Source: Candidatus Poribacteria bacterium (lineage in GTDB: Bacteria > Poribacteria > WGA-4E > WGA-3G). Taken from it: a DNA stretch of 64,000 nt. Both the position numbers and the translations under genes were made by a program. The DNA is taken from the NCBI GenBank assembly GCA_022821965.1, contig JAJECN010000035.1, positions 1 to 64,000 of the forward strand, written 5' to 3'. Shown in pieces: positions 11,455 to 33,687 of the stretch; positions within the stretch are counted from its first letter, which is position 1; each line of letters begins with the position of its first letter. Under the pieces are notes generated by a model. It saw only the letters and a program-made list of their open reading frames with translations. It was not told the DNA's origin and did not search any database.

Positions 11455-11507
11455 AATTTTTCAGACTGTGCTCTATCACATCACGCGCAAGTTCTTGATA
11501 GGTTTCG

Positions 11508-11611
11508 GTAGCACATAACGAAGTGGCGTGCGGATATACGGGAAAGAGATTGAGACCTCCAACCCACCTCACCGAACCGCAAGGAAAATTAAAAAAAGGA
11601 AATTAATCAAT
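11508..11611 (+). promoter_or_regulatory. Structured leader element, copy A (before the MDR dehydrogenase)
   Basis: Ungapped alignment with the leaders at 30498 and 32957. It starts GTAGCAC, has hairpin GCAC...GTGC, then GCGGATA-ACGG, CCAAC-CACCT and CGAACCGCAAGGAAAATTAA. It then carries about 15 extra bases with a second AAAGGA before the ATG at 11612. It lies 53 bp after the previous stop. Confidence 0.65.
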
Positions 11612-12643
11612 ATGCTAAGAGAACTCATTGCACCGGCACAAGAACAGGTCGCTTTCCGAGAATATGAAAGCCAACCTTTGCAAGCCAATGAAATTCGGGT
11701 CAAGAGCCAGTTTGGTGCGGCTAAACACGGTTCAGAGATGGCATCATATAAGGGTTATGCCGGTCCGCGCGGTGGCTACGACGGAGAATATAAAATCTTT
11801 CGCGCAAACGGTTCTGGGATGGTGCACTACCCTTCAGGACTTGGGAACATGTGTGTTGGCGAGGTAACTGAGATTGGTGCGGACGTTACCGATGTCGAGG
11901 TCGGAGAGCGAGTTTTTCGGCACAGTTCCTTCCGCGAGGAACATGTTTGGAACGCAGCAGGTACCCGGAAACTGCCCGATGGGGTGCCTTGGCAGGCAGC
12001 CGTTTGTTTGGATCCAACAGATTTTGCCCTCGGCGCAGTGCGCGACGGTAATGTCCGCATCGGTGATGCTGTAGCTGTCTTTGGAATGGGTGGTATCGGA
12101 CTGATGGCACTGCAGCTTGCCAAATTCGCAGGTGCCTACCCAGTAATTGGCATCGATCCGCTCGAATTGCGCCGTAATGTCGCCCTCGAATGTGGTGCGG
12201 ATCTGGTTATCGATCCTACGACAGAGGATGCCGGTTTGGAGATTAAAAAAGCCACCAACAAACGTGGTGCCGATGTTTGCATTGAATATAGCGGACATCA
12301 TACGGCACTGCAAGACGCTATCCGCGGCGTGATGTATTTAGGGACGGTTGTCGCCGGTGCGTGGCCCGGTATCTACCCCGCAGGATTAGATCTCGGTGCG
12401 GAGGCACATTTCAATCGACCGACGATTGTCTTCTCACGCGCCTGCAGCGAACCGAATCCCGAATATCCGAATTGGAATGAAGGCAGACTCTTTGAAATCA
12501 GTTGGAGGCTCCTTTGCGATGGCAGCTTGAAATCTGAACCGGTTATATATCCTGTTGTCGATTTTGACGATCTATTGGACGAGTATCCGAAGATAGCAAC
12601 TGCCCCGGGTGAGAATGTCAAGTTAGGTGTTCGATTCGCATAA
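11612..12643 (+). CDS. Medium-chain dehydrogenase/reductase-family protein lacking canonical zinc ligands
   Basis: 343 residues from ATG 11612. The longer frame to 11528 is rejected because the leader element occupies it and AAAGGA precedes this ATG. The GroES-like N-terminal domain has GAAKHGSEM where catalytic-zinc members have a Cys motif, and there is no GHE. The four-Cys structural-zinc lobe is also absent. The Rossmann domain is intact (FGMGGIGLMALQLAKF, then GIDP). So it is an NAD(P)-binding MDR protein, probably zinc-independent or with a different metal site. Substrate unknown; cytoplasmic. Confidence 0.82.
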   Translation: MLRELIAPAQEQVAFREYESQPLQANEIRVKSQFGAAKHGSEMASYKGYAGPRGGYDGEYKIFRANGSGMVHYPSGLGNMCVGEVTEIGADVTDVEVGERVFRHSSFREEHVWNAAGTRKLPDGVPWQAAVCLDPTDFALGAVRDGNVRIGDAVAVFGMGGIGLMALQLAKFAGAYPVIGIDPLELRRNVALECGADLVIDPTTEDAGLEIKKATNKRGADVCIEYSGHHTALQDAIRGVMYLGTVVAGAWPGIYPAGLDLGAEAHFNRPTIVFSRACSEPNPEYPNWNEGRLFEISWRLLCDGSLKSEPVIYPVVDFDDLLDEYPKIATAPGENVKLGVRFA

Positions 12644-30488: not shown

Positions 30489-30497
30489 CAATCAACT

Positions 30498-30586
30498 GTA
30501 GCCTGCAACAACGGCGCAGGCGGATAGACGGCGATTAACGTCGTTAAACCAACTCACCTGAACGAACCGCAAGGAAAAATTAAAAT
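30498..30586 (+). promoter_or_regulatory. Structured leader element, copy B (before the S1/P1-like gene)
   Basis: Starts GTAG ten bases after the DUF362 stop. Hairpin GCCTGC...GCAGGC, then GCGGATAGACGGCGA, CACCTGAACGAACCGCAAGG and an A/T-rich run to the ATG. 60 of 86 positions match copy C without gaps, and the distance from GCCT to ATG is identical (86 nt). There is no room for a promoter between the stop and the element. Confidence 0.7.
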
Positions 30587-31465
30587 ATGAAACGTTTTTA
30601 TAGTGCGTTAATTCTGTGTTCACTCATTCTCACGACCCCGGTATGGGCATGGTGGGGCGGTGGCCACGATATCATGACACAGGCAGCCGTTAAATCACTC
30701 CCTGATGAAGTCCCCGAATTTTTCCGAAACGCCGGTAAAATGGTCGCTCACTGCTCTTATGACCCTGATCTATCTAAGGAGCGAGGCACGCCACACGCAC
30801 GGCAAGCCGAATACGGAGAACACTATATCGATGTAGAGCTCTTCGGAGAACATCCGATTCCAGACGGACGTGAAGCGCATATTCAGCTATGTGCCGAACT
30901 CGGATTTACACCGCGAGAAGTCGGTACACTTCCGTATGCCTTGGCGGAATGGACAGAACGACTGGCATTCGCTTTCGCTGAGCACCGTAAATGGCCCGAT
31001 AATCCGATGATCCAGTACAAGTGTTTCCTCTATGCAGGTTTCCTCGCACACTACGCACAAGATATGTGCCAACCGTTGCACCTCACTATTCATTTTGACG
31101 GGATTCGGCAGGAGGACGGGACACGTCTACATAAAGGCATCCATGAGAAGGTCGATTCAGCAATTGAGATCTTGGGATTGGACCCGATGGAACTCACAAA
31201 AGCACAACACATTGAACCCGTCGGTGATTTAATGCCCGCAATCATCGAACAGATCAAAACCGGACACAGTTTGGTAGACGATGTTTACGCAATCGCGGAA
31301 GATTGGAAAAACCTGAAAGATCCAACACCTGCCTTGGTTGATTTTACGAATGACCAGGCACGTGAAGCCGTGCGTTGGACAGCTTCGCTCTATTTGACTG
31401 CGTGGAAACTCTCCGAAGGGATCAGGCTTCCCGGTTGGCTTGACCGCGCAAAAAATGACCAATAA
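30587..31465 (+). CDS. S1/P1 nuclease / zinc phospholipase C-like exported enzyme
   Basis: 292 residues. A signal peptide (SALILCSLILTTPVWA) is followed at once by WWGGGHDIMTQAA, so the mature protein would begin with Trp. In S1/P1 nucleases and phospholipase C this residue binds zinc through its alpha-amino group. Further ligand motifs: FLAHYAQDMCQPLHLT and a His-containing HGIH-type segment (LHKGIHEKVD). Probably a tri-zinc periplasmic phosphoesterase; nuclease versus phospholipase cannot be told apart. Start ATG 30587 is fixed by the conserved leader. SBP56 follows 29 bp downstream. Confidence 0.85.
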   Translation: MKRFYSALILCSLILTTPVWAWWGGGHDIMTQAAVKSLPDEVPEFFRNAGKMVAHCSYDPDLSKERGTPHARQAEYGEHYIDVELFGEHPIPDGREAHIQLCAELGFTPREVGTLPYALAEWTERLAFAFAEHRKWPDNPMIQYKCFLYAGFLAHYAQDMCQPLHLTIHFDGIRQEDGTRLHKGIHEKVDSAIEILGLDPMELTKAQHIEPVGDLMPAIIEQIKTGHSLVDDVYAIAEDWKNLKDPTPALVDFTNDQAREAVRWTASLYLTAWKLSEGIRLPGWLDRAKNDQ

Positions 31466-32915: not shown

Positions 32916-32947
32916 AAAGGGGCTATTGCCTGCAATAGCCCCTTTTT
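32916..32947 (+). terminator. Rho-independent terminator after SBP56
   Basis: GGGGCTATTGC (32919-32929), loop CT, GCAATAGCCCC (32932-32942), then TTTTT. A preceding AAA gives added symmetry. A textbook intrinsic terminator. Confidence 0.92.
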
Positions 32948-32956
32948 AACGCAATT

Positions 32957-33045
32957 CAAGCCTTCAACAACGTTGAAGGTGCATCTACGGCGAGGGATCC
33001 CGTTTAAGGAATTCGCCTGAACGCCTCGTTAGGAAAATTAAAAAT
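32957..33045 (+). promoter_or_regulatory. Structured leader element, copy C (before the membrane permease)
   Basis: Hairpin GCCTTCAAC-AAC-GTTGAAGGT, then TCTACGGCGAGGGATCCCG, CGCCTGAACG and TTAGGAAAATTAAAAAT before ATG 33046. The spacing to the start codon equals copy B. It begins only about ten bases after the terminator T-run. Confidence 0.68.
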
Positions 33046-33687
33046 ATGGACACTGTCTCATGGTTGGGTTACACGCTCCTCGGCGTATATCACGGCATTA
33101 ATCCGGGGATGGGATGGCTTTTTGCAGTCGCTTTAGGCATGCAGGAAAAACGGAGAAGCGCGGTTATCGGTGCCCTTTTTCCAATGGCACTTGGACACGC
33201 AATATCCATCGCGGTCGTGGTTTTCATTATCGCCTTGGCACAACGGCAGTTGCCGGAAGATGTTCTTCGCATTGCCTGTGCTGTCATACTGTTCGGCTTT
33301 GGTGTGTACAAATTTTTCAGCGCGCGACACCCGAGATGGGTCGGAATGCGTGTTAACTTCAAAGACTTAACGATCTGGTCCTTCCTGATGGCATCCGCAC
33401 ATGGCGCGGGCTTGATGTTGGCACCGCTTTTGTTGAGAACGCCTGCTGCGGAGGCTTCAGGGCACATGCACCACGCACATGCAAGCATGGCGGGTGACGC
33501 TGCGATGTTATTATCAGCAGTCGGGGTACATACCCTCAGTTTTCTCCTTGTAACGGGAATTGTAGCGGTTATCGTTTACGAAGTGGTAGGACTTGCGCTG
33601 CTTCGCAAGGCGTGGTTTAACATGGATTTGCTGTGGTCCATCGCTTTGATGATTGCCGGTGTTGTTATTCTTTTCTGGAAGCATTAG
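33046..33687 (+). CDS. Integral membrane protein, putative metal permease-like
   Basis: 213 residues with about six membrane segments. The first loop region has YHGINPGMGWLFAVALG, reminiscent of the H-x-D/N-P motifs of NicO/RcnA/HupE-type transporters; the central loop is His-rich (HMHHAHASM), and a later SAHGAGLMLAPLLL adds another His in a membrane segment. These suggest metal or small-molecule transport, but I cannot place it in one family. The stop overlaps the convergent nucleotidyltransferase gene by 23 bp. Confidence 0.72.
   Translation: MDTVSWLGYTLLGVYHGINPGMGWLFAVALGMQEKRRSAVIGALFPMALGHAISIAVVVFIIALAQRQLPEDVLRIACAVILFGFGVYKFFSARHPRWVGMRVNFKDLTIWSFLMASAHGAGLMLAPLLLRTPAAEASGHMHHAHASMAGDAAMLLSAVGVHTLSFLLVTGIVAVIVYEVVGLALLRKAWFNMDLLWSIALMIAGVVILFWKH

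Follow-up and report, generated by a model that had tools for sequence, protein, structure and literature searches.

The three similar leaders preceding unrelated genes in the analysed window, a stretch of 64,000 nucleotides from a Candidatus Poribacteria contig, are members of a real and large family of elements anchored at start codons, of which we found no earlier description in the literature searched. We consider it probable (about 0.7) that these copies, termed A, B and C, belong to an old and proliferated family of non-autonomous elements of about 95 nucleotides, MITE/REP-like in its character, which expanded within one genus and acts as a translation-start cassette. A mobile cassette of this kind was one of two readings offered in the initial annotation of the window, and it is now backed by about 160 copies in the source genome, by their anchoring at starts, by covariation, by empty orthologous sites and by copy numbers between 1 and at least 150 across the genus, whereas the actual transposition is something we infer.

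Results

The three copies in the window

Copy B (30493-30586; all copies, hairpins of copies, Shine-Dalgarno sites and genes described here for the window are located on the forward strand) is recognized by the covariance model R1 between positions 30493 and 30589 (E=3.8e-18) and abuts the ATG at 30587, which opens a gene of 292 amino acids (30587-31465) without Pfam match at E<=0.001 that was initially described as S1/P1-like. Its 5' hairpin, GCCTGC-AACAACGGC-GCAGGC (30501-30521), contains a covarying stem, and at its 3' end the element carries a Shine-Dalgarno sequence with an A-rich spacer, AAGGAAAAATTAAAAT (30571-30586), where the 16 nucleotides from AAGG to the ATG equal the modal spacing of the family. 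Copy C (32952-33045), with the hairpin GCCTTCAAC-AAC-GTTGAAGGT (32960-32980), abuts the ATG at 33046 of a gene of 213 amino acids (33046-33687), again without Pfam match at E<=0.001, in agreement with the equal distance to the ATG that had been noted for B and C. Copy A (11503-11597), with the hairpin GCAC...GTGC (11511-11531), precedes a gene of 343 amino acids encoding a zinc-binding dehydrogenase (11612-12643; PF00107) and ends about 15 nucleotides before its ATG at 11612. The gap arises from a native, second Shine-Dalgarno site with its spacer, AAAGGAAATTAATCAAT (11595-11611), which resembles the sequence of element-free orthologs and was kept downstream of the element.

The ungapped alignment of the three copies proposed initially proved to be right, with recomputed identities of 60/86 for B and C, 55/86 for A and B and 45/86 for A and C, compared to a mean of 21 and a maximum of 46 matches in about 20,000 random pairs of 86-mers from the window, and the stems quoted above bear out the claimed compensatory change of the first hairpin. 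A terminator-like hairpin, GGGGCTATTGCCTGCAATAGCCCCTTTTT (32919-32947), ends about 12 nucleotides before the hairpin of copy C, and the gene following this copy would thus need a promoter within the element or read-through.

Size and architecture of the family

The three leaders are real, but they represent a small part of the copies in the source genome. There, BLAST with copy B located 50 places and model R1, which was built after an alignment of 27 copies, at least 149. The core CGAACCGCAAGGNAAATTAAAA, with up to three mismatches, matched 156 times compared to 0 for the reversed pattern, and 161 distinct copies were obtained once the remaining ones had been collected. The covariance-model search of Poribacteria genomes that had been suggested as a check has thus revealed many further copies upstream of starts with a strongly covarying hairpin, clearly the reverse of the missing copies, location away from starts and lack of covariation that were named as speaking against the proposal. 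The hairpin pattern alone matched 61 times (control: 0), nearly always within element copies, which indicates that the hairpin and the 3' half travel as one unit. In the literature searched, which comprised papers accessible without subscription, we found neither a description of the element in Poribacteria nor one of spreading via gene starts as observed here.

From 5' to 3', the element consists of an A-rich shoulder, the motif TA(G/A), the hairpin, whose stem covaries and whose apical loop is small, then GGATATACGG, a variable segment for which AGAGGAACGT is a frequent beginning, and a 3' part reading CACCTNA(A/C)CGAACCGCAAGGAAAATTAAAAA; the 3' core CGAACCGCAAGGAAAATTAAAA terminates at the start codon. 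In the 27-copy alignment, stem cells are paired in 96% of cases, compared to 21-44% once the partners were slid, and six of the eight stem pairs vary on both sides. Among 195 non-redundant copies, the top covarying column pairs are the nested stem pairs 10-24, 9-25, 15-19 and 8-26, and strong covariation outside of the 5' hairpin was not detected. The hairpin is a genuine single-strand structure, either of RNA or of ssDNA, and the excess of GU (26) over CA (13) among stem mismatches is only suggestive of the strand that folds. It may have served mobility, in form of ssDNA, or the stability of mRNA.

Within copies, the core is about 97% fixed, with interleaved positions such as the N of CCTNA being randomised, and the elements thus look selected after dispersal. 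This conservation is nearly equal in copies that do not adjoin a start directly, which counts against our preferred reading and which translation alone does not explain. A leader peptide common to the copies (HLTEPQGKLK, coupled via ATGA) was considered and rejected: third codon positions are mostly fixed and 26% of the copies have a stop in this frame, so that in general the 3' half does not encode a peptide. Variant leaders (L224, L237, L225, L015, L063) share the 5' hairpin and a 3' CCGCAAGGTAAATTAAAAA and differ in their middle part, for example GGCGACTCCAGAGAAAAGTGTGTTATACTTAGATTCCACGTCGTTTCT, suggesting modular subfamilies, and a second insert of the type GGGGTTTTTGCTTGGGTATTTCTTCAGATATACGG, found between hairpin and core in L192, L206, L225 and L097, recurs at unrelated loci.

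Anchoring at start codons

In 104 of the 156 anchored copies of the source genome, a start codon follows 13-20 nucleotides after AAGG, and in 79 the spacing is exactly 16 nucleotides, compared to respective means of 14.3 and 1.9 in controls at shifted positions. A start was counted if an ATG, GTG or TTG opened a reading frame no shorter than 60 codons, or than 30 for frames that leave the retrieved locus. Fifteen further copies form the upstream partner in a tandem pair, and about 15 have a second start site 20-45 nucleotides downstream, which, like that of copy A, is frequently preceded by what looks like a native ribosome-binding site. The 102 downstream proteins with matches cover 130 Pfam families, among them recurring ones such as ABC-2 permeases and GFO/IDH/MocA; no function is common to these proteins, and the 25 families listed do not include a transposase.

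Distribution and age

Each of the 38 genomes of the genus that were examined contains the element, with numbers ranging from one copy in the complete genome G043 and eight in the complete genome G045 up to at least 150 in others, which favours proliferation over an inherited regulon. In nearby genera, it is found in both genomes of g7 (20 and 10 copies), in the single genome of g8 (1 copy) and in 2 of 18 genomes of g9. One strong match (E 2.3e-16) in a genome of another family (G060; family f4, genus g5), whose sister genomes have none, reflects either horizontal transfer or contamination, and the remaining genomes of the 85 searched across the phylum gave no match. A scan of public genomes for the exact core returned at least 101 stretches, and the 80 listed are all titled Poribacteria. 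Two exact cores are contained in the 33.9-kb viral-collection contig IMGVR_UViG_3300012932_000188 (L162/L163), which represents a provirus of Poribacteria or, alternatively, host DNA that was misassigned. In the source genome, the best identity between non-tandem copies has a median of 82% and a maximum of 91%, indicating that these copies are old and that no recent jump was caught.

Filled and empty orthologous sites

Orthologous sites with and without the element were identified for A, B and C, for trpB, for a gene encoding a FAD enzyme and for an ABC permease. At site B, the distance from the upstream stop to the ATG in genomes lacking the element is mostly 13-16 nucleotides, typically consisting of the 13-nucleotide CAAAAGGAGAATT, and this native site is gone when the element is present. 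Copy C is restricted, among aligned orthologs, to the source genome, G001 and G008, and other species contain other spacers such as AGAAAGGCGTTTTT-ATG. At site A, the native site, GGAAGGAAATTAACCAAT-ATG in element-free relatives, was kept downstream of the element.

The filled or empty status of site B requires nine changes on a gene tree of 28 genomes, with at least seven changes forced by supported branches, and it is scattered like shuffled labels, with the sister genomes G001 and G008 being filled and empty, respectively. The site-B elements of different genomes nevertheless resemble one insertion, sharing common sequence and some of the upstream flank. Part of this patchiness may thus originate from recombination of alleles between species rather than from new insertions, which we count against our preferred reading. 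Near this site (L203, L205, L202), the same intergenic location is occupied by other dispersed repeats with a hairpin, of the type CGCAATCTGTTAGATTGTGC, and additional repeat families may thus exist in these genomes.

Candidate start codons inside the element

In certain genes, the element appears to contribute the start codon and a candidate N-terminal extension of the host protein, notably in trpB and ruvC, where the ortholog frames were read by eye. The trpB gene of element-free genomes reads ATGCAACAA-CTCCCTGAC; in about 13 genomes, ATGCAACAA is replaced by ...AATTAAAAAA, resulting in ATGAAATCCCAGGTCCACCCAAACGAACCGCAAGGTATAATTAAAAAA-CTCCCTGAC and variants thereof. The predicted extension, MKSQVHPNEPQGIIKK-LPDAT, is in frame, and its ATG is located in the element after an ACGGAGA site. 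In ruvC of about 8 genomes, the sequence ATGCAAAAYCC is kept within the element, and the hairpin is degraded in some of them, as if the coding part had been retained; the predicted peptide of the extension is MQNPPHPTARNSKK, and the source genome contains ACG at the position of the element-borne ATG of other genomes. The FAD enzyme shows a conserved GTG start in most filled genomes.

In an rraA-like gene of five genomes (G000, G044, G030, G032, G029), the element is fused in frame without ATG, GTG or TTG. In the source genome and G032, a TAG in frame is located upstream, and the sole AUN before the gene is found in AAGGNAAA-AUU-AAA-AAG; murQ of G035 and G032 resembles this case, with AUA-AUU. 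An AUU in phase is present in 7 of 7 copies without internal canonical start. Initiation at AUU in the rraA-like gene and in murQ would account for these metagenome-assembled sequences, as would a start deeper inside the gene. The broader proposal that all copies without ATG use AUU was cut back, since trpB, ruvC and other genes contain upstream starts in frame.

Search for signatures of mobility

Among the 161 copies of the source genome, 99 have a complete 5' end and 153 a complete 3' end, an excess of 5' truncation that is partly due to ascertainment bias. It had prompted us to consider a retroelement spreading by target-primed reverse transcription, which we rejected as the reverse transcriptase domain RVT_1 (PF00078) is absent from this genome (95% complete). 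A composite element with terminal inverted repeats was equally rejected: such repeats are not general, an inverted partner being found upstream in 18 of 202 copies, compared to 3 in the control. Target-site duplications were not seen at site B, although the insertions there are old and have taken the place of the native site. The source genome encodes four Y1_Tnp proteins, and none of their genes has an element copy within 1.5 kb. One RAYT-like Y1 gene (at about 376 kb of contig C57; L252) has its own GTAG-type repeat, GTAGGAGCGATCTCCGAATCGCGAC...GTCGGGAATCGGAATTCCCTCCTAC (L252, about 1355-1430 and 2139-2204), which is unrelated to the leader element.

Tandem arrays are frequent, and those of G044 (L497, G044:C1:4576300-4578900; L498; L500) comprise 11 copies at a distance of 111 nucleotides, 7 at 142 and 5 at 120, and all three terminate at the start of a gene. 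By visual inspection of the 11-copy array and one other, about 20 nucleotides from the beginning of the gene seem to be part of the repeated unit, with the ATG altered to ATA or ACG in the inner copies.

Discussion

The described features can be combined into a scheme in which insertion would place the 3' end of the element at the start codon or a few codons beyond. The native ribosome-binding site would thereby be lost and the gene translated from the AAGG site of the element, and we expect that these sites are indeed used. If the native ATG were lost as well, translation could begin at an ATG, GTG or TTG of the element following an inner GGAG-like site, which would give the protein an N-terminal extension, or apparently at the AUU of the element (AAGGAAA-AUU-AAA). 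The stronger proposal that the element targets start codons when it moves, and that its Shine-Dalgarno sequence and its back-up starts including AUU capture translation in the recipient gene and can give rise to new N-termini, is tentative, and we would rather doubt than endorse it at this stage.

The initial annotation had also suggested a regulatory RNA class, where the hairpin and the conserved 3' half would bind a protein, an sRNA or a ligand and thereby gate ribosome access across a large regulon. The covarying hairpin, the invariant blocks with their fixed spacing, the apparent selection on a core whose interleaved positions such as CTN are randomised and the potential pairing between the CCU of CACCU and the AGG of the Shine-Dalgarno site would all suit such a function. 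Yet the copies tested match nothing in Rfam, neither at the gathering score nor credibly below, a single short covarying stem does not resemble the architecture of an aptamer, with the rest being conserved as sequence, and the downstream genes are unrelated, with 130 Pfam families and no coherent set kept across species. Together with the patchy presence at orthologs and the gap between the single copy of G043, a complete genome, and at least 150 in other members of the genus, this leads us to set the suggestion aside as unlikely. A chance similarity or convergence of ribosome-binding leaders, for which one could invoke that bacterial starts commonly show AAGG and A-rich spacers, has a negligible probability, as 95 nucleotides of common sequence with covariation and pattern controls of 0 already refute it.

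Concerning the mode of spread, a GTAG-type REP family moved by a RAYT (a transposase of the Y1 HUH type) that carried the 3' half along as a passenger would account for the TAG at the foot of the hairpin, the high copy number and the occasional inverted partner upstream, and a RAYT-like gene is present in the source genome. However, this gene is flanked by the different repeat GTAGGAGCGATCTCCGAATCGCGAC, no Y1 gene resides near a copy, the hairpin hardly ever occurs alone and the copies are located at gene starts, whereas REPs lie mainly downstream of genes (PMC3733652), which makes this origin decidedly improbable. Somewhat easier to envisage, although still rather unlikely, is a spread without transposase, where template switching or ectopic recombination via A-rich microhomology near starts would copy leaders between genes. 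It is consistent with 3' junctions in A-rich sequence at or just beyond the ATG, with the replacement rather than displacement of the native ribosome-binding site at B, C and trpB, with tandem arrays of up to 11 copies and with a cognate transposase not having been found, but by itself it does not explain why one leader reached more than 150 genes, and the 5' junctions lack common homology. We retain the reading of a proliferated, non-autonomous element, which presumably spread by transposition, although the scarcity of inverted partners, the failure to see target-site duplications, the lack of a reverse transcriptase gene, the distance of the Y1 genes from any copy and the age of the copies weigh against it.

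Small dispersed repeats of bacteria are known chiefly between or downstream of genes or inside open reading frames. Repeats at the starts of more than 100 unrelated genes that replace native ribosome-binding sites would constitute an unrecognised route to rewire translation and, where the element became N-terminal coding sequence, would create new protein ends. The annotation of start codons in Poribacteria is affected, as in trpB, ruvC, murQ and the rraA-like gene, the element offers a natural candidate case of AUU initiation, and the span between 1 and at least 150 copies in one genus permits comparisons before and after its expansion.

Mobile promoters are dispersed upstream control sequences that precede unrelated genes; unlike these, which we compare by description only, the Poribacteria element is a translation signal and not a recognisable promoter. 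With riboswitches and the leader classes of Rfam it shares a structured 5' leader near the start, although here it is one small hairpin without a regulon and without Rfam match. The Rickettsia palindromic elements, repeats of about 150 bp whose insertions in unrelated genes are translated in frame (reviewed in PMC10969869), sit inside open reading frames, whereas the element described here is placed at the start codon, brings a ribosome-binding site with it and turns into N-terminal coding sequence in some cases only. Like bacterial MITEs (ERIC, Correia, BOX and others), it is small, non-coding, non-autonomous and present in many dispersed copies that vary between relatives and can change neighbouring expression signals, but neither general terminal inverted repeats nor target duplications were seen, and it is precisely anchored at start codons. 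With GTAG-REPs and REPINs it has in common a short hairpin with TAG at its foot, a high copy number and a tandem and occasionally inverted arrangement. Its repeated unit of about 95 nucleotides with a conserved 3' translation-start half differs from the palindrome of 20-40 nucleotides in a REP, its TAG/TAAG is located at the foot of the hairpin with the G paired in the stem, in contrast to the unpaired tag of GTAG-REPs, no cognate RAYT was found and the copies reside at gene starts. Since the element departs from REP/RAYT systems and classical MITEs in features that were tested, we place the element as a new sort among the dispersed small repeats.
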